A stretch of 53,540 nt of DNA from Myxococcota bacterium. GTDB lineage: Bacteria; Myxococcota_A; Polyangia; Polyangiales; Houyiibacteriaceae. The notes beneath the pieces were generated by a model. It did no database searches, was not told the origin of the DNA, and saw only the letters and a program-made list of their open reading frames with translations. Location: the NCBI GenBank assembly GCA_028284955.1, contig JANQQS010000032.1:1-53540 (forward strand). The letters are read 5' to 3'. Positions 7,315 to 53,540 of this stretch are shown piece by piece (position 1 is the first letter of the stretch; each line of letters opens with the position of its first letter). Position numbers and translations under genes: made by a program.

Positions 7315-7558
7315 TTCTGTGTTTCTCGGAGGGTTTGATGCAAACCCTCCCCCCCGCGGGTACAACCCGCGCGGGACCCCCTCCCGACTCCGGCCGCTTC
7401 GCTGCCGCCCCACCGCGAAGCGGCGGGGCCCCAGCAGTTCAACCTCACGAAACCAGGTCACGTGCCTCCTGGCGGGGAGCTGGGGTGAATCGGCGGGGCC
7501 GTACCCCGACGACAGGGTCTGGGTGCCAGACCCTCCGGTAAACTGACCATTGCTCTAG
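7315..7558 (-). repeat. Dispersed hairpin-chain intergenic element, copy A
   Basis: Fills the gap between the convergent secG and kinase genes. On the minus strand it starts at CTAG (7555-7558, which includes the kinase stop codon) and runs through several short-loop hairpins. They include 9-bp arms 7514-7522 / 7526-7534 with a 3-base loop, 7-bp arms 7355-7361 / 7365-7371 with a 3-base loop, and 10-bp arms 7328-7337 / 7341-7350 with a 3-base loop. The linker between the hairpins matches 46222-46422 and 53330-53540. It has no coding potential that I trust. As a string of GC-rich hairpins between convergent genes it may also stop transcription. Confidence 0.85.
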
Positions 7559-10500
7559 TGCGGGAGTGGGACCGGTTTGCCGGCGGCGACTGCGGCGAGG
7601 GCTTCTTCGGCGGCTTGTTCGTAGTAGCGGTGACCGTATTCGGTGGCTAAGCGAAGCACTTCGCGCAGCAGGTCTTCGCCGCTATCAGTATTTCCCGTAC
7701 GATGGTCGGCGACCGCCAGCATGTATTTGCATTGGATAACGTCCCAAAGGTACCCGTGTTCGGTCGCGTATTCGAGCGCTTCGAGCATTCGATCGCGTCC
7801 TTCGGAGGAGCCAAACTTGATCGCGTCGATGAATCCAAGCACCCGCATGTTGGTATACTGAAGCCGGACCAGTCCTTGGTCGCGGGCGATCTCGTAGCTG
7901 TAGCGCGAAAGCGCAAACGCACGTTTGTAATCGCTCGACCGGAGATAACACTCGCCCATGTTGTGCGCGTTTACTGCTGCTTCGAACGGAAAACCGTATT
8001 CTTTGGCGAACTCCATGGCGCGGCCTGCCGTCTCAATCGCGCGCTGTTGGTCGCCAACATAGGCGTTGACCAAACTTTCTGCTTTTAGCAGCTCGCATTC
8101 GGTGTACCGATCATCGGTCGAGAGCTGGCGCGCGTCGGCGATGGCTTGAATGGCCCCTTCCCGATCCCCCGTCCCGGCGTAGGCAAGGGAGAGCGGAATC
8201 AGACAGCGGACTTGGGCCAATCGATCGGATGCTTCTTTCGCGATATTGAGCGCTTCCTGAAGCAGGCCGATGGCATGAGAATAGTGCCCATTCCGAGTGC
8301 TCGCGTCAGCCGTAGCAACGGTCACGTCAAGGAGCAGCTGCGGGTCGCCGAGCTTGCGCGCGATGTCTCGAGCCCGGTCAAACCATTGTCGTGCCTCTTC
8401 CGCAAAACGATTGGAATGGTAAAGCAGACGGCCGCGCAGCATTGAGAATCGCGAAACGCAGTCTTCTCGTCCCAAACTTTCGGCCAGCGCCAAACCCGCT
8501 TCCATGCGCTCGATTCCTTTTTTGGGCGCGCCGCTGCGAAAGCTCAGATCACCGAGCCGGCGATAGAGCGAGAGGATTCGGTCGTGGTCTGGGTTTGGGG
8601 TTTGGCCGAGCATGTCGATGGCCTCACCAAGGCTCGCCGCCGCGCTCGTCAACGCATACTCGCTCTCCAGCCGATCCGCAGAACGAATCAAATAGTCGAT
8701 TGCCTTTGACCGATTCCCCGCACGACGGTGATGGTCGACCAAGCGTTCCGCCATTTCGTGTACGTGCTCGGGGTAAAGCTGCTCCAAGGCGCCGGCGACC
8801 GCGCCATGAAGCTCTCGTTGCGCGTCGATGGTGAGGCCTTCTCGGAGCACGTCGCCAATCAGTTCGTGAGAAAAGGCGTATTCCTCGTGTCCGGCCCGTA
8901 CTACGATTCCTCGCTGCTCGAGCACGGTGAGCGATTGCTCGACCGTCTCGACTGGCTCCGCCGCCACCGCCGCAAGCAAGTTGGTGGGAAAGCGAGCGCT
9001 GGTGATGGCTGCGATCTGCAGAAGATGGCGCTCGGTGGGACCAATTCGTGCAAGGCGGGCGGCGACGATACCGCGGAGTGTCTTGGGCACTTCCACGGCG
9101 ACTTCGGGTTTGAATATCAACCGTCGGTCGGATTCGACAACAACGGCCTCAGCGTCGCGCAGAGCTTTGAGATACTCCTCCACATAGAGAGGATTGCCGC
9201 CGCTCTTCACCGACACCTCCCTCAAAAGGTCAGCCGGCACTTCGTTGGCTCTCAATCTCGCGGAGATCAAGAACGTGATTTCGTCTTCCGACAACGGCTG
9301 CAGACGGATCTCGTGGTAATCGGGAAGGTTGCTCCAAGCGTGGACCATCCCGGGACGAAAAGAGAGCATCAGCACAACGCGCGCGGACCGGTCGTCGCGA
9401 AGCAGGCTGTAAAGCAAGGCCAAACTCTCGTCGTCGATCGATTCCACGCCGTCTAGAGCGAATACCGTAAGGCGGTCTTCCGCCAGTTTACTCGCGATAC
9501 GCGCCAGCGCGGAAAGCAACGGTTGCGCGACCGTGGTTTCGGGCAACCGGTCCTGGGCGACGCCGAGAGTCACCCGAACGGCCTGTATCTCTACTCCGGG
9601 CAAACCAAGTTCTCGAAGGCGACCGATCTTTTCTCGAACGTCTGCTTCCGCTTCGAACTCATCAATGCCGAGCACCACCCGGAGCATCTCCTGACACGCC
9701 GCGAGCGGAACGTTACGGCTCCGCTTCGAGATGCGCGCGACGTACATGCCTACGTCGTGTCCCCCGAGCCGCAAGCGCCGCGTGGTTTCGAGAAGCAGTC
9801 GCGTTTTGCCTGCGCCAGCATCGCCGACGATCCCCACTATTCGGCGGTGCCCCTGGTTGGCCTGCGCCAGCGATTCACCGATGCGACGAAGTTCGTCTCG
9901 CCGGCCGATAAACTTCCCCTGATGCTCGGTTAGATTGCGTTCGGCGACGATGCGAAACCGTCCCGCGGTCACCTGGTGTTCTTCGCCTTCAGGGGCCAGT
10001 TCGAATATTGAGCGCACCGTCGCTTCCACGACTGGCGTGGCGAGCGGTTTTCCGTACGGCGCGGTCGTCGCTACGGCATGTGTATCCTGAGTAAGCTGAC
10101 GATAGCGATCATCGCGCAGGAGCTCCCCCGAAATATCGACCAGTAGCCGTCCCGAATGCACAGCGATTTGTAAGGTGTTGAAACCGCTTTGCTCTGCACG
10201 CAGCCGCGACGCCCGCGCGAGGGCAAGCGCGCATCGGACGGCAGACTCCGTCTCCCGTCCATCCGGGTCGAGCACGCCAAACACGGCCGTCCAGTGACGC
10301 CCTTCGGGCTCGGACGAGTACTCGGTGATCAATGCGCCGGCGCGCTGCAAATGAGCCTCAAGTTTGGTCTGCGGAAATGGGCTTCTCGCATCGAGGTGGA
10401 TGGCAAGCGTGGCCACATCTCGTTGCTCAGCCTGAGGTCGCGCCACGTTGGTGACGACGCGCTCGCGCTGGCTCCGAGGCGTTGCGTCGTCCGGCGAGAC

Positions 10501-11616
10501 CACCGCGGTGCGCTCCCGGCGAATCCGCGCCACTGGTGTCGGCGCCGGCGAGTCGTAGGAGCGAGGGTCCAAATCGAACGCGGCGCGCAAGTCGGTTGCA
10601 TCATCCGCCGGTGGCTGGCTCTCGATCGACTCCTTGAGCCCTTCGAGGTAGTCCGCAAGATCGCGCGCGCCCACGCGCCGACCGCTCGAGTAGAGAAACT
10701 GAATCAATGCCTCGTACAAGCGCCCTGCGTCTGGATGACGCTCGCCGGGGTCGCGACTCATCGCTGTGGTGACGATGTTGCAGAGCTCTTCCGGAACGTG
10801 CGACGCGAGCTCGCGAAGCGGAACGATATCGACCTCGCGAACTCGCGACAACGTGTCGTACACGGACCGCTCGAGAAAAGGATTGCGACCGGAGAGCGCT
10901 TCGTAGAGCACGGTGCCGAGAGAAAAGAGGTCGGTTCGGGCATCGACCTCATCTCCGTTGGCTTGCTCGGGAGCCATGTACGCGTGTTTGCCCTTGAGAA
11001 TGCCGGCCTCGGTCCGTTCGTCGACAGTGGTTCGCGCCTTTGCGATTCCAAAGTCGGTGAGCTTGACCTCCCCTTCGAAGCTCAAGAGCACGTTCTGGGG
11101 TGAGACGTCGCGGTGCACAATGTGCAACGGTTTGGATGAAGCATCGCGGCGCCGATGGGCATAATCAAGCCCTTTGGCGACTTCACTCACGATGAACACG
11201 GCGAGCTCCGGAGGGAGCGTCGCGTCGGTGTCGCGAACCGTTTTGAGAATCGTGGCGAGATCGAAACCGGCCACGTATTCCATTGCAATGAAGAAGCTAC
11301 CGTTCGCCCGGCCTAAATCGAATACTTGAACAATGTTTGCGTGCGACAGAGTGACGGCGATTTTCGCTTCGTTGATAAACATGTCAACGAATCGCGGGTT
11401 TTCTCCAAGCTCATCGAGGATTCGCTTGATCACGAGAATTTTTTCGAAACCCTCGACTCCGTGCGACTTGGCTTTGAAGACTTCCGCCATGCCGCCACGA
11501 GCGAGCCGTTCGAGAAGCTGATACTTGCCATAGACGCGGGGACGATGGGTTCCCACATTCACACTCGCACTCGCGCGTGGGCTGCGAACGCCCGGAATTG
11601 TTGTCGTTTTCGCCAC
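7555..11616 (-). CDS. Ser/Thr protein kinase with cyclase-like, AAA ATPase and TPR regions
   Basis: A 1353-residue cytoplasmic signalling protein. The kinase domain spans about 29-300: glycine loop LARGGMAEVF, Lys64, catalytic HRDVSPQN at 168-175, DFG at 188-190 and an APEQ motif. About 397-560 resembles a degenerate adenylate/guanylate cyclase-type domain without an obvious metal site. About 567-900 is an AAA_16-like ATPase with Walker A GDAGAGKT at 598-605 and a Walker B-like FALDG. The remaining about 450 residues are helical repeats, TPR-like. Such PknK-like fusions are common in Myxococcota; input signal and target are unknown. GTG 11616 has a GAGGG ribosome site about 10 bases upstream. 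The TAG stop lies in the edge of repeat copy A. Confidence 0.9.
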   Translation of the reverse strand: MAKTTTIPGVRSPRASASVNVGTHRPRVYGKYQLLERLARGGMAEVFKAKSHGVEGFEKILVIKRILDELGENPRFVDMFINEAKIAVTLSHANIVQVFDLGRANGSFFIAMEYVAGFDLATILKTVRDTDATLPPELAVFIVSEVAKGLDYAHRRRDASSKPLHIVHRDVSPQNVLLSFEGEVKLTDFGIAKARTTVDERTEAGILKGKHAYMAPEQANGDEVDARTDLFSLGTVLYEALSGRNPFLERSVYDTLSRVREVDIVPLRELASHVPEELCNIVTTAMSRDPGERHPDAGRLYEALIQFLYSSGRRVGARDLADYLEGLKESIESQPPADDATDLRAAFDLDPRSYDSPAPTPVARIRRERTAVVSPDDATPRSQRERVVTNVARPQAEQRDVATLAIHLDARSPFPQTKLEAHLQRAGALITEYSSEPEGRHWTAVFGVLDPDGRETESAVRCALALARASRLRAEQSGFNTLQIAVHSGRLLVDISGELLRDDRYRQLTQDTHAVATTAPYGKPLATPVVEATVRSIFELAPEGEEHQVTAGRFRIVAERNLTEHQGKFIGRRDELRRIGESLAQANQGHRRIVGIVGDAGAGKTRLLLETTRRLRLGGHDVGMYVARISKRSRNVPLAACQEMLRVVLGIDEFEAEADVREKIGRLRELGLPGVEIQAVRVTLGVAQDRLPETTVAQPLLSALARIASKLAEDRLTVFALDGVESIDDESLALLYSLLRDDRSARVVLMLSFRPGMVHAWSNLPDYHEIRLQPLSEDEITFLISARLRANEVPADLLREVSVKSGGNPLYVEEYLKALRDAEAVVVESDRRLIFKPEVAVEVPKTLRGIVAARLARIGPTERHLLQIAAITSARFPTNLLAAVAAEPVETVEQSLTVLEQRGIVVRAGHEEYAFSHELIGDVLREGLTIDAQRELHGAVAGALEQLYPEHVHEMAERLVDHHRRAGNRSKAIDYLIRSADRLESEYALTSAAASLGEAIDMLGQTPNPDHDRILSLYRRLGDLSFRSGAPKKGIERMEAGLALAESLGREDCVSRFSMLRGRLLYHSNRFAEEARQWFDRARDIARKLGDPQLLLDVTVATADASTRNGHYSHAIGLLQEALNIAKEASDRLAQVRCLIPLSLAYAGTGDREGAIQAIADARQLSTDDRYTECELLKAESLVNAYVGDQQRAIETAGRAMEFAKEYGFPFEAAVNAHNMGECYLRSSDYKRAFALSRYSYEIARDQGLVRLQYTNMRVLGFIDAIKFGSSEGRDRMLEALEYATEHGYLWDVIQCKYMLAVADHRTGNTDSGEDLLREVLRLATEYGHRYYEQAAEEALAAVAAGKPVPLPH

Positions 11617-33912: not shown

Positions 33913-35433
33913 TCACTCGGCCCACGGATCGAGCACCTCCGATTGAGGAACTCGTCGCATCGGCGCCGGAGGAGTGGCCTGCTGCGGCTTCTCAGGCTTC
34001 TTCTCTGAGCTACGGGTCCGTCGCGAACGTCGACTTGAACTGCGTGAACTGCGCTCGGCTTTCAACGTGAAATTGAGCTCCCGGGCTTGGGTGAGCGAGG
34101 ACACCGCAAAGGCCCGAGTATCGAAGCCGTCGCGACGTAGCTCGAGTTGCAGACGCGAGCCCGTGTCGGGCTTGGGAATGTCCACCGGCGTCTTGCCGAT
34201 ATATTCGTCACCCCTCCAGACCTCCGCGCCGGCTGGCTCGGAAACGATGCGAATGGTGGCGCGCGGCGACTTGGCGGGTTCCGGTTCTTTTTTCGTGGCG
34301 ACAGGCTCAGGAGGCGTTTCCGCGACCGGAGGCGCGGGAGTCTTCTCAATGTTTTCAGGCGGCGGCTCCGCGGCTTTGTTGCCCATCATCGAGTATGCGG
34401 CAGCGCCGCCGCCGAGCACCAACACCGCCGCCAGGACCCCAACGAGCAGTCCTTTTTTGGATTGTTTGGGCGTCGCTCCGGAGTGGTCGAGCGCAAGCCG
34501 GGTCGACGTGGGCTCTCGTCCTAGCGGGGTCATGCCCTGCTCGATGCGCTCGAGATCGACTTGGAGCTCTGCCATGGTTTGATAGCGCTCGTCGGCGGTT
34601 TTCGCCATGCACTTGAGGATGACGGTCTCGAGCTCGCGGGGAAGATCGCTCACTGTGTCGCGCGGTGAGGCCGGCGCTTCGTAGAGATGCTTGCTCAGGA
34701 TGCCCATGAGATTGTCGGCATCGAACGGCACGTCGCCGGTCACCATCTCATAGAGAATGACCCCGAGCGCGTAGACGTCGGTTCGATGGTCGACCCCGTT
34801 GCCGGCGCATTGTTCGGGCGACATGTAGTGCGGCGTTCCAAACACTTGACCCGCCCGCGTAAGCTTGCTGGAGCTACCGCCCACTTTCGCGATTCCGAAA
34901 TCCAACACCTTGACGAAGTCATCGTCGCTTCCGCGCCGAATCAGATATACGTTGTCTGGTTTGAGATCGCGGTGAACGATTCCGCTTCCGTGCGCTGCGC
35001 CCAGCGCCTGACACAACTGCTTGGCGATGTGCACTGTCCGTTCAGGTGAAACGCGTCGTTCTTCGATGGCCGCGGTGAGGTCTCGTCCCTCGAGGTGCTC
35101 CATCACGAAGTATGTGGCGCCGTCCGGCAGCGTTCCGAAATCGCTGATGTCGATGATGTGTTGATTTCCGATCGACGATGCGCTCTGCGCTTCTTGCCGA
35201 AACCGAGCGATGATCTGAGTGTCTCGAGACACATCACCGCGCAAAACCTTTACCGCCAAGGACTTGCCGAGCACGATGTGCTTGGCCCGGTACACGATGC
35301 CCATGCCGCCTTCGCCGAGTACGGCTTCGACTTCATAGCGACCGTCGATGGTCGTACCCACAAGAGGGTCTTGATCCCCCTCGTCTATCGGTGCCCCGTC
35401 AATCACCCTCAAATGCTCCGCTGAGCTGTTCAT
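33913..35433 (-). CDS. Membrane Ser/Thr protein kinase with PEGA domain
   Basis: A 506-residue Hanks-type kinase. Kinase domain at about 33-295: glycine loop [10 protein letters not shown], Lys62, HRDLKPDN at 154-161, DFG at 178-180, [10 protein letters not shown]. One transmembrane helix at about 328-348 is followed by a proline/glutamate-rich spacer and a PEGA-type domain at about 391-457 ([20 protein letters not shown]), which would lie outside the membrane. The C-terminus is a basic Arg/Ser-rich tail. ATG 35433 has GGTGAG upstream. The layout suits a receptor kinase sensing envelope state; the two lipoprotein genes that follow are possible partners by position only. Confidence 0.93.
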
Positions 35434-41486: not shown

Positions 41487-42468
41487 TGTCGCTGGCTTTC
41501 AGCAGAGGAAACCCGAGTTGTTCTCTTTGCTCGTACCAGGCCTGTGCGCACGCCCGCGCAATACGCCGCACGCGGCCAATGTAGCGCTGTCGTTCAGTCA
41601 CACTAATGGCGCCGCGGGCATCGAGCACGTTGAAATAATGGCTGCACTTGATGACCGCGTCGTATGCGGGAAGCACGAGACGCGAACAAGCATCGGCATC
41701 GTGAAATGAAACCGTACCACCCTTCGCGGGTTTGTCGCTGCGCACGCCGAGCAACGTGTTGCAAAGCGCTTCGTAGTGATCAAAAAGCTCTTTCTGACCT
41801 CCGTGACCGCGCGCCTCCGAGCGACCACCGGGTTCGGATAGCTCACGTTCCACAGGAGCCCGCTCGAAGTTGTACGTGCTCCATTCCCATTCCGCACGTT
41901 GGTACACGTCGCCGTAGCGAACCCCATCGGTCCAGTGCAGATCATAGACATTGTCGATGTCCTGCAAGTACATCGCGATGCGCTCCAAACCGTAGGTGAG
42001 CTCTCCGCTAATTGGTTTGCAGTCGTACCCGCCGCACTGCTGAAAATACGTGAACTGGCTGATCTCAAGCCCATCCAGCCACACTTGCCACCCGAGGCCC
42101 CACGCGCCCAGCGTGGGGGACTCCCAGTCATCCTCGATAAAACGAATATCGTGTTCGCGCGGGTTGGTTCCGATGGCTTCAAGCGACTCCAGATACAGGT
42201 CTTGAATCTCGAGTGGTGACGGTTTGAGGACTACCTGAAACTGGTGAAAGTGCTGTAGACGGTTCGGGTTTTCCCCATAGCGGCCATCGGTAGGGCGGCG
42301 GGACGGCTCCACGTACGCGGCGTTCCACGGTTCCGGACCAATCGCTCGAAGAAACGTATGTGGGTTGAACGTTCCAGCGCCCACTTCGGACCCATACGGC
42401 TGCGCCAGCAAGCAGCCTTTTTGAGCCCAAAACTCCTGAAGCTTGAGGATGAGCGCTTGAAAATTCAT
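41476..42468 (-). CDS. glyQ: Glycyl-tRNA synthetase alpha subunit
   Basis: Class II catalytic subunit that activates glycine. The 330-residue protein begins with the typical [19 protein letters not shown], then [20 protein letters not shown], the motif-2-type [21 protein letters not shown], and [33 protein letters not shown]. Family members are close to 300 residues; this one has a short extension in the [12 protein letters not shown] region and C-terminus. ATG 42468 overlaps the scpB stop (ATGA). Confidence 0.96.
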
Positions 42469-43454
42469 TCGTCCTCATCGTCGTCGTCGTCGTCCTCGTC
42501 CTCATCGTCGTCGTCCTCGTCGTCTGCGGACTCGTCGTCGTCCTCATCGTCTGCGGACTCGTCGTCGTCCTCATCGTCTGCGGACTCGTCGTCGTCGTCC
42601 TCCTCATAGTCTGCGTCGGCCGCTCCTGCGCTTTCGTCTGCTTCGGCGCGGGGGCCCGACTCTTCTTCGTCAGATTCCGATTCTTCCTCTGCTTCGAACT
42701 CTTCGCTTTGCGCTTCCGCTTCGGCGGCTTCGGCTTCTTGTTGTGCTTTGTGCAGATCGAGCGGCTCCCCCGTCGTTCGCTCGAACAACGCGCGATTCTC
42801 CTCAGACAGCTCAGTGAATTCTTTGAGCGTGGGCAGGTCTTCAAGGCTGTTCAGCCCAAAAAACTCCAGAAAATCTTCCGTGGTGCCGTAGAGTAACGGG
42901 CGGCCAGGTTCGTCTTTTCGACCCAGCACCCGAACCAGCCCACGCTCAGCAAGCATTTTCAGGGCAGCGCCGGAATCCACGCCGCGAATCTCGTCCACTT
43001 CCGGCCGTGTGACCGGTTGTCGGTACGCCACGATCGAAAGTGCCTCAAGCTGCGCGCGACTCATGCGTACGGGCTTTTTCGCAACAAACGCCCGAACAAA
43101 TGGCGCGTTCGCGGCCGCCGAACGGAACTGATAGCCCCCTGCGACTTCCACCAGAGCTACGCCACGCCCCCGCCATTCTTCCACCATCTCGGGAAGCAGA
43201 GATTGCACTTCGGCCAGCTTGGCGCGCGCAACGCGTGCGAGTTGGCGTTCCGTAATCGGTCTGTCCGAGACGAAAATCAAGCTTTCGAGAATTCGGCGGA
43301 GATGGTCGCGAGAGATCGATACGGGTGGTGCCTTGTGCGGCCCCGGCCGATCCCCAACGGAACTCTCGTCCTCTTCGGGTGGCTCGCTCTCCGCGGGCGG
43401 CGGCGCCGGCAGGGCGGCGTCAGAGGTCTCCACGCTCTCAATCTGCGTCGTCAT
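42465..43454 (-). CDS. scpB: Segregation and condensation protein ScpB with acidic repeat tail
   Basis: Winged-helix subunit of the SMC-ScpAB condensin. Residues about 45-215 hold the two winged-helix domains ([66 protein letters not shown]). After about residue 245 the protein becomes a Glu/Asp tail with three ESADDE-type repeats. In DNA this includes two identical 27-bp units at 42529-42555 and 42556-42582 with degenerate neighbours. Normal ScpB is near 200 residues, so the tail is an unusual addition. The scpA end overlaps its start by 17 bases, and it overlaps glyQ by 4 bases. Confidence 0.92.
42478..42606. repeat. Tandem repeat coding for the ScpB acidic tail
   Basis: Low-complexity DNA of TCG/TCC-type triplets. 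Two perfect 27-bp units lie at 42529-42555 and 42556-42582, with shorter imperfect copies on both sides. It stays in frame and encodes Asp/Glu/Ser/Ala. Slippage could change the tail length between strains. Confidence 0.85.
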
Positions 43455-46221: not shown

Positions 46222-46422
46222 GTAGAGCAGTGATCAGTTTACCTGAGGGTCTGGCACCCAGACCCTCTCGTCGGGGTACGTACGACCCCGCCGATTCACC
46301 CAAACTCCCCCTCCAGGAGGCACGTAACCTGGTTTCCGGGTAGTTCGCGGAATACCCCTCCCGATCCCGATCCTCACCCCGTTCCCACTGCGAGTGATCA
46401 ACGCAAGCAGGCTTTGCTCTAG
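46222..46422 (+). repeat. Dispersed hairpin-chain intergenic element, copy B
   Basis: The left edge reads TAGAGCA (46223-46229), the right edge TGCTCTA (46415-46421): a 7-base inverted end. The first hairpin has 9-bp arms 46246-46254 / 46258-46266 with a CAC loop, followed by a CGGGGT ... ACCCCG hairpin and the conserved linker. The distal hairpins of copies A and C are missing or changed. The right edge contains the stop codon of the TPR/HTH gene (46419-46421). Confidence 0.85.
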
Positions 46423-52950: not shown

Positions 52951-53291
52951 CCCGTATTCACGTCTGCCGCGCCAGCGAACTCGCTCCCTTGCAAACCAGG
53001 GTGGTCTCGATGACTCCGGACCCAGAAGGGCGCCCAAGAGAGGCGCTCATCCTTCGAGACGGAGAAGGCGTAGTGCGCGCGTACGTCAACCGCTGCAAAC
53101 ATCTGCCGATTCCCCTCGACAGCGGTTCACGCGAATTCTTCGACGCAAACCGACAGCACCTGCTCTGCCGAACCCACGGTGCAGTGTACCGAACCGACAC
53201 TGGTCGCTGCATCGACGGCCCCTGCAAAGGCACATTCCTCGATCCCCTCACTTGCATCGAGAAAAACGAAGACATCTTTGTAGAGTACTGA
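52947..53291 (+). CDS. Rieske [2Fe-2S] ferredoxin-type protein
   Basis: A 114-residue protein carrying one Rieske cluster site: Cys50-x-His52 (RCKHLPI) and Cys74-x-x-His77 (LLCRTHGAVY). GRCIDGPC after the second motif is also typical. It has no signal or membrane segment, so it is a soluble electron-transfer protein, perhaps for an oxygenase or dehydrogenase encoded elsewhere. ATG 52947 overlaps the phosphatase stop and is preferred over the open frame from 52875. The coupling with a phosphatase has no obvious biochemical reason. Confidence 0.93.
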   Translation: MTRIHVCRASELAPLQTRVVSMTPDPEGRPREALILRDGEGVVRAYVNRCKHLPIPLDSGSREFFDANRQHLLCRTHGAVYRTDTGRCIDGPCKGTFLDPLTCIEKNEDIFVEY

Positions 53292-53329
53292 GAAGCCCAA
53301 CGAAACCAGGGCCCCATCGCTGTTTTCTT

Positions 53330-53540
53330 AGGGTTTGGCACCCAAACCCTCTCGCCCGGGATACGATCCCGGACGATTCACCCAAACTCCCCCGCCAGGA
53401 GACACGTGACTTGGTTGCGTGGGGTTGAACTGCCGGGGCCCCGTCGCGTAGCCATGGGGCGGCCGCGAAGCGGCCGGCGGCGGGGGGGGGCCCCCGCGGA
53501 ATCGTATTCCGTGGGGGGAGGGGCTGCGGCCAGCCCCTCC
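53330..53540 (+). repeat. Dispersed hairpin-chain intergenic element, copy C
   Basis: Begins about 40 bases after the Rieske stop and runs to the window end. Hairpins: 9-bp arms 53330-53338 / 53342-53350; 7-bp arms 53356-53362 / 53366-53372; 6-bp arms 53461-53466 / 53470-53475; a 12-bp stem with one G-T pair 53491-53502 / 53506-53517; and 10-bp arms 53517-53526 / 53531-53540. The linker matches copies A and B. It may continue past the window. Confidence 0.8.

Follow-up and report, generated by a model that had tools for sequence, protein, structure and literature searches.

Paired changes keep the stems of a multi-hairpin repeat in a genome of the class Polyangia

Introduction

A contig of 53,540 nucleotides from a Myxococcota bacterium (GCA_028284955.1, JANQQS010000032.1), called the window here and analysed at its full length, stops inside a repeat built of hairpins, and two further copies of the same repeat lie elsewhere in it. 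The copies differ in their stems. An initial annotation read these differences as changes on both arms that keep the fold, as expected for selection on RNA or single-stranded DNA structure. The locus therefore raises the question of whether the fold is kept when many more copies are compared, and in which strand. Structure is usually proved by compensatory change, and such proof is hard to come by for mobile repeats, whose copies are young and recombine. The window is one whole contig of an assembly of 6.07 Mb in 223 contigs, estimated as 96.55% complete.

Results

Three copies of the element in the window

The element is ~ 207 nt long in its short form (a 207-column profile) and carries six hairpins in constant order, H1, H2, H4, H5, H6, and H7; H2 and H4 are separated by a central domain for which the predicted fold differs from copy to copy. 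Copy C occupies positions 53320–53540 on the forward strand and consists of the left terminus CTGTTTTCTT (53320–53329) followed by family-profile positions 1–211, which map exactly to 53330–53540, the interval first proposed for it. The contig stops inside this copy, which consequently has no 3′ tail. Copy A (7330–7534, reverse strand) covers profile positions 1–209 and starts 20 nt past the stop codon of a protein kinase/AAA/TPR gene at 7555–11616. Copy B (46246–46336, forward strand) is a 5′ part comprising H1, H2, and the beginning of the central domain, so that the distal pairs, in H6 and H7, can be compared between copies A and C alone.

Each of the four pair exchanges that had been described between these copies is present in the sequence. 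In H1 (53330–53350 in copy C; AGGGTTTGG-CAC-CCAAACCCT), copy C has GGGTTTGG/CCAAACCC where copies A and B have GGGTCTGG/CCAGACCC. In H2 (53353–53375; CGCCCGGGAT-ACG-ATCCCGGACG), the copy C stem CCGGGAT/ATCCCGG stands against GGGG-based stems in A and B, with a T.G at the loop-adjacent pair of copy A and a loop region 4 nt longer in copy B. The H6 hairpin (53492–53516; CCCCGCGGAAT-CGT-ATTCCGTGGGG) changes from CGCGGGT/ACCCGCG in copy A to CGGAAT/ATTCCG in copy C, and H7 (53517–53540; GGAGGGGCTG-CGGC-CAGCCCCTCC) has GGAGGGTTTG/CAAACCCTCC in copy A in place of GGAGGGGCTG/CAGCCCCTCC. The two remaining hairpins of copy C, also on the forward strand, are H4 (53438–53460), which contains a single C.C mismatch (53445/53453), and H5 (53461–53475), which reads GGCCGC-GAA-GCGGCC.

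Copy C lies 38 nt downstream of the stop codon of a Rieske gene (53289–53291). The interval is filled by the left terminus and by a 28-nt forward-strand fragment of an older, differently built copy (53292–53319; GAAGCCCAACGAAACCAGGGCCCCATCG), which begins at the Rieske stop codon and ends at the H4 tip; this fragment was assigned by eye, against a copy on another contig (C137) of the same genome. Copies A and B have a common 5′ flank, TAGAGCARTGRTCAGTTTACC (7535–7557 on the reverse strand; 46223–46245), and copy B is followed by GTGATCAACGCAAGCAGGCTTTGCTCTAG (46385–46420), which together suggest another small repeat around the element. Two further observations were made in the window. A run of GTC/CTC-rich units at 42454–42648 would code for an acidic low-complexity stretch on the reverse strand. 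The five best listed relatives of an S1-like protein are 76–81% identical over nearly the full length and come from metagenome-assembled genomes labelled Myxococcota, Myxococcales, Polyangiaceae, or Deltaproteobacteria; metagenome-assembled genomes of SG8_38 and Sandaracinus follow closely.

Size and forms of the family

A 19-nt core pattern with up to three mismatches was found at 142 + 118 = 260 places in the genome, compared with 6 + 4 = 10 for the reversed-pattern control, and a blastn search of the same genome with copy C gave at least 87 matches (the best 40 of 269 candidates were scored). The analysis below uses 224 distinct profile matches in 90 loci of this genome and the window; the 90 loci (30 from blastn and 60 further stretches) are the better-matching places and not a random sample of the 260. 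In a long form H5 and H6 are separated by an insert of ~ 135 nt, and a third form has an insert near column 102. Hairpin repeats coincide with assembly breaks, 41 of 87 arrays lying within 300 nt of a contig end. A scan of viral contigs with the core pattern showed no match among the matches listed. In the window, no Rfam 15 family matched at the gathering threshold, and in seven loci none matched at E values up to 1. The open-access papers listed for repeats of Myxococcota, myxobacteria, Sandaracinus, and Sorangium gave no description of the hairpin family.

Covariation of the stems within the genome

Pairs were counted per register from the loop, with shuffled arms as the control. Register 4 of H1 was Watson–Crick paired in 100 of 101 copies (C-G 73, T-A 27), against 80.4 after shuffling. 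All 119 copies were paired at register 9 of H2 (C-G 76, G-C 40, T-A 3; shuffled 63.8) and 118 of 119 at register 2 (shuffled 87.6), while register 7 was unpaired in more than half of the copies. The H4 stem was paired at register 4 in 125 of 131 copies, mostly as C-G (94) or T-A (30). For H6, the values were 118/118 at register 5 (shuffled 58.3) and 113/118 at register 6 (shuffled 54.8), and for H7, 85/87 at register 3. No covariation was detected in H5, where A-G and C-G were equally frequent at register 4 (60 each). Thus H1, H2, H4, H6, and H7 are kept by paired changes, and the proposal that changes on both arms preserve the fold holds in the 224 genome matches, with pairing far above that of the shuffles.

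A null that keeps the tree and the number of changes per column was applied to the 38 copies having all six hairpins, and 11 of 53 pairs were significant at a family-wise level of 0.05, recombination between copies being a breach of the tree assumption. Changes on both sides were placed on six branches for H1 register 4 and on four for H7 register 3. Non-paired columns inside one hairpin were also strongly associated in this test, indicating that H6 of this genome descends from a few founder alleles and changed in blocks. The covariation would accordingly have been overstated had the three copies of the window alone been used.

The H6-H7 module in other genera

In copy C, H6 and H7 form the two halves of a module that extends across the class. 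For a covariance model of H6-H7, 19 sequences were taken from this genome and from two further genera, leaving out copies with TTTG/CAAA stems. Within the order, the model matched 28 of 183 genomes, which belong to 22 of 83 genera with the present genome counted; in a sample of the phylum it matched 15 of 377 genomes, all 15 in the same class, Polyangia. Per-genome counts are lower bounds, the best 30 or 14 candidates having been scored. The module is common to otherwise different repeats of many Polyangia genera.

The cross-genus alignment comprises 71 matches (59 distinct rows) in 44 loci, includes weak reverse-strand matches, and leans towards the model structure, to which it was fitted. 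In it, 94.5% of cells were standard-paired, compared with 75.3% after shuffling and 45.5–59.9% with the partner slid, and double changes, on both sides of the pair, occurred in 20 of 21 pairs. The raw module sequences show the same exchanges (for instance, CCCCATGCGG/CCGCATGGGG, CCCCGTCGGA/TCCGACGGGG, and GGAAGGGTC/GACCCTTCC), set in a constant frame, GGGWGGGGG-CCCC...GGGG-GGAGGG...CCCTCC, around the changing stems. The prediction that covariation would remain significant once more copies were aligned was therefore borne out within the genome and, more tellingly, across genera.

The fetched copies from two genomes of another genus (G007 and G014; L031, L032, L102–L104, L107, and L110) consist of a 5′ module alone, H1 plus GATTCACCCRARCTCCCCCGCC. 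Some of them stand directly after stop codons, and they show the same C-G/T-A alternatives in H1; G007 also has three H6-H7 matches elsewhere in its genome. The element of the present genome thus resembles two modules joined together that are found separately in other genomes. In a further genome (G025; L036, L118, and L119) the module sits inside a repeat with inverted ends of ~ 28 bp, TACTGGCGGCCCGAAATCCGTTCCG, unlike the ends found here. The 135-nt insert of the long form (L060, L051, L078, and L055) ends in GGGGGCGTAGGGGCCCCCGCGCAGCG, which resembles stretches preceding the module in three genomes (G005, G013, and G010); the shared 3′ domain may exceed H6-H7.

The constrained strand

Departures on one side of a pair distinguish the two strands. 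In H4-H7, 45 such departures were G.T and 17 were A.C (binomial p 0.0005), and the 45 leave out both a near-fixed G.T in H4 (120 of 131 copies) and two mixed H6 registers. Within the H4-H7 stems C>T (1.55%) exceeded G>A (0.84%), whereas the unpaired central columns showed the opposite (1.32% vs 2.76%), and the G.T excess therefore does not stem from strand-biased mutation. Across genera, the ratio of G.T to A.C was 16:3 (43 distinct rows). With G.T far above A.C, one strand, as RNA or single-stranded DNA, is the constrained form in at least the 3′ half, and so the 3′ half is constrained as the folded forward strand of the element. No G.T excess was seen in H1-H2 (G.T 3, A.C 10), where nothing pointed to strand-specific pairing. 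For the 5′ half, a folded single strand, a double-stranded palindrome, and a palindrome-restoring copying mechanism are all conceivable. The suggestion of selection on an RNA or single-stranded DNA fold is thus upheld for H4-H7, where G.T is tolerated and A.C is not, and lacks a strand-specific signal in H1-H2. Overall, it appears to be the fold of the single strand that has been preserved in evolution.

Position relative to genes

Both neighbors were resolved, under a simple open reading frame rule, for 45 of 87 arrays, of which 21 were convergent, 22 co-directional, and 2 divergent (p 0.0003 against an expectation of 1:2:1). Of the resolved 5′ neighbors, 56 of 67 pointed at the element, compared with 40 of 65 of the 3′ neighbors (p 0.006). 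The constrained strand is hence mostly the 3′-UTR strand. The median distance from stop codon to element was 11 nt (n = 93). At 17 of 55 5′ junctions the stop codon lay exactly at the element edge (7 or 8 nt ahead of AGGG); these flush stops were preceded by C in 17 of 17 cases, compared with 11 of 34 window open reading frames (Fisher 1.9e-6). At 13 further 5′ junctions the stop codon fell within the first bases of the element. In the other genera, 24 of 36 modules had a convergent gene on the 3′ side, and 10 of 20 measured stop codons were at most 12 nt away.

Termini and arrays

In tandem copies the left end reads CTGTGTTnTTTGAGGG; after genes it reads C-T-R-R-TTTnTTTGAGGG. The right ends read CCCTCCRAACAACACAG, which in reversed form in tandem copies is CTGTGTTGTTYGGAGGG. 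The left end and the reversed right end, CTGTGTTnTTTGAGGG and CTGTGTTGTTYGGAGGG, constitute terminal inverted repeats of the kind found in MITEs. Flanks were C-T-R-R on the left and Y-Y-A-G or CAG on the right, with no consistent target-site duplication; 96 left ends were T-rich and 107 right ends were A-rich.

The arrays contain truncated copies, and solo end hairpins also occur. Upstream fragments end at profile positions 52–57, 67–68, 116–118, and ~ 168. Downstream fragments, read only where they follow a true right end because false matches to the minus strand of other hairpins also occur, begin at ~ 9, 47, 54–56, 105, 147, 157, and 191. Plain nested insertion was considered as the origin of the arrays and set aside: the 52–57 breakpoint is the only one on both sides and explains few arrays, that on contig C215 being one. 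The truncation points mostly differ between the two sides, which makes the arrays mosaics and not plain nests. A second repeat family was noticed at L010 (G000:C151, ~ 34160–34275) and upstream of C115:25562 and C141:12090. Its inverted ends, TAGAGCAGCGGAATTTTGGCCTGAGCGCG ... CGCGCTCAGGCCAAAAGGATGCTGCTTTA, are its own, and copies of the hairpin element have come to lie next to it more than once.

Search for a mobilizing enzyme

Five families were searched (Y1_Tnp, TnpB zinc ribbon, RVT_1, DDE_Tnp_1, and rve), and transposases can be missed in an assembly as fragmented as this one. The genome has one Y1_Tnp gene, which no copy of the element adjoins, and one short rve match (303 aa); it gave no match to DDE_Tnp_1, TnpB, or RVT_1. 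The TnpB zinc-ribbon family was found in 0 of 9 genomes. The element profile had no match in 29 Y1 loci of the family or in 28 other transposase/reverse transcriptase loci, and the H6-H7 model had none in 49 transposase/reverse transcriptase loci. Two genomes with many module copies (G010 and G015) gave no Y1 match.

A link to RAYT transposases by way of a motif, CTGGCACC, downstream of the Y1 gene was also entertained. The motif occurred four times in the 29 Y1 loci (86.7 kb) and once in 166.7 kb of S1-gene loci, and the link was dropped given the absence of element profile matches in those Y1 loci. Separately, one single-contig genome (G034) carries 14 reverse-transcriptase matches, eight of them with similar high scores, which probably reflect the recent spread of a group II intron or a comparable element.

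Discussion

The element shares much with known repeats. Passages of PMC3733652 describe REP elements as high in copy number, located at gene ends, with GT pairs in their stems and with stop codons formed by the terminus, and passages of PMC3116915 describe compensatory changes in the spacer hairpin of REPINs. Like REPs, BIMEs, and REPINs, the element is high-copy, palindromic, and intergenic, mainly between convergent or co-directional genes; going by those passages, it also resembles REPs in the GT pairs of its stems, in a stop codon sometimes placed at its terminus, and in compensatory hairpin changes. Compensatory change in a mobile hairpin repeat is thus not new in itself, since REPINs, as described there, show the same. 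The element is set apart from REPs because it is several times longer (~ 207 nt and six hairpins, against a unit of 20–40 nt), carries a class-wide module, and departs from REPs in tag and RAYT: no unpaired GTAG/CGTC tag was seen at either end (96 left and 107 right ends), and unlike GTAG REPs it had no association with RAYT (Y1) genes in the loci tested. The element also sits in the class Polyangia. It resembles MITEs in being short, non-coding, high-copy, and clustered, with inverted-repeat-like termini, and differs from them in that no parent transposase was found among the five families searched, no target-site duplication of fixed length was seen, and the internal fold is under strand-specific constraint. 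With Rfam structured RNAs it has in common a covarying multi-helix fold with G.U pairs. We class the element as a variant of the REP/MITE kind of repeat and as a member of neither.

The account that we favor, with moderate confidence, is that of a non-autonomous, REP/MITE-like multi-hairpin repeat, probably transcribed in 3′ UTRs and mobilized in trans by a putative enzyme. The ends, which bear hairpins, would be acted on in trans by a process like transposition, through which copies spread, and insertion would prefer C-T-R-R sites, often stop codons. Mobility is hinted at by the inverted-repeat-like termini and the mosaic tandem arrays. Once in place, copies would form the 3′ UTR in the transcript of the upstream gene, and the folded strand may persist there as a stable 3′ end or weak terminator. 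Counted against this account are the want of a linked transposase in the five families searched, the lack of a consistent target-site duplication, truncation points that mostly differ between upstream and downstream neighbors, the missing G.T excess of H1-H2, the lack of covariation in H5, and the flush stop codon at only 17 of 55 junctions. A bolder version can be put forward tentatively, as a conjecture that we would sooner doubt than accept. Here H6-H7 would be a class-wide selfish module, its folded single strand (RNA or DNA) being read by a putative machinery that acts in trans and inserts at stop codons; the module would have been captured by different mini-elements in at least 22 genera of one order, and it would have spread to a few hundred copies in the present genome, though this is nearly free of the transposase families tested.

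The same location at gene ends, on the strand of the upstream gene in 56 of 67 cases and away from divergent regions, together with the tolerance of G.T in H4-H7, is what would be seen of a cis-acting RNA selected by the host, a 3′-UTR terminator or stabilizer kept for the benefit of the genes, its mobility incidental or past. This is rather unlikely, however. The mosaic, tandem, and truncated arrays look like those of a multiplying element, the module is missing from most of the order (present in 28 of 183 genomes) and is surrounded by different repeats in each genus, and the tail after the last hairpin is A-rich and not T-rich, so that on the coding strand this hairpin does not have the form of a classical intrinsic terminator.

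Less probable again is an absence of selection on folding, the complementarity of the arms being maintained by gene conversion between copies or by templated repair across quasi-palindromes. The block-wise change of H2 and H6, with its strong off-pair association, and the indifference of H1-H2 to G.T fit such a process. However, restoration of perfect palindromes would not be expected to leave a near-fixed G.T in H4 or the G.T excess of H4-H7, nor does it sit well with a conserved frame that persists, around freely changing stems, across bacterial families.

Mobilization as a REP/REPIN-type element by a RAYT (Y1) transposase is quite improbable: the likenesses recounted above from PMC3733652 and PMC3116915, in copy number, gene-end location, GT pairs, terminal stop codons, and compensatory changes, are set against ends free of the GTAG/CGTC tag, a sole Y1 gene with no adjoining copy, 0 of 29 Y1 loci matching the element, and the module-rich G010 and G015, in which Y1 was not matched. 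A scaffold of an RNA-guided nuclease of the TnpB type (IS200/IS605) or a retroelement RNA spread without its own gene, such as that of a group II intron or retron, would account for a long structured 3′ module common to different carriers, and can hardly be credited when TnpB is found in 0 of 9 genomes, a reverse transcriptase gene (RVT_1) is not matched in the present genome, the module matches 0 of 49 transposase/reverse transcriptase loci, and Rfam offers no match at E values up to 1 in seven loci.

For the family as a whole, the occurrence of one module in many genera, with stems that change freely inside a fixed frame, means that the folded form can be precisely defined. The non-autonomous repeat favored here provides a tangible example in which to study how hairpin repeats can multiply when no transposase is apparent, and it raises the further questions of why these repeats end flush with stop codons and what effect they may have on the transcripts of the genes that they abut.
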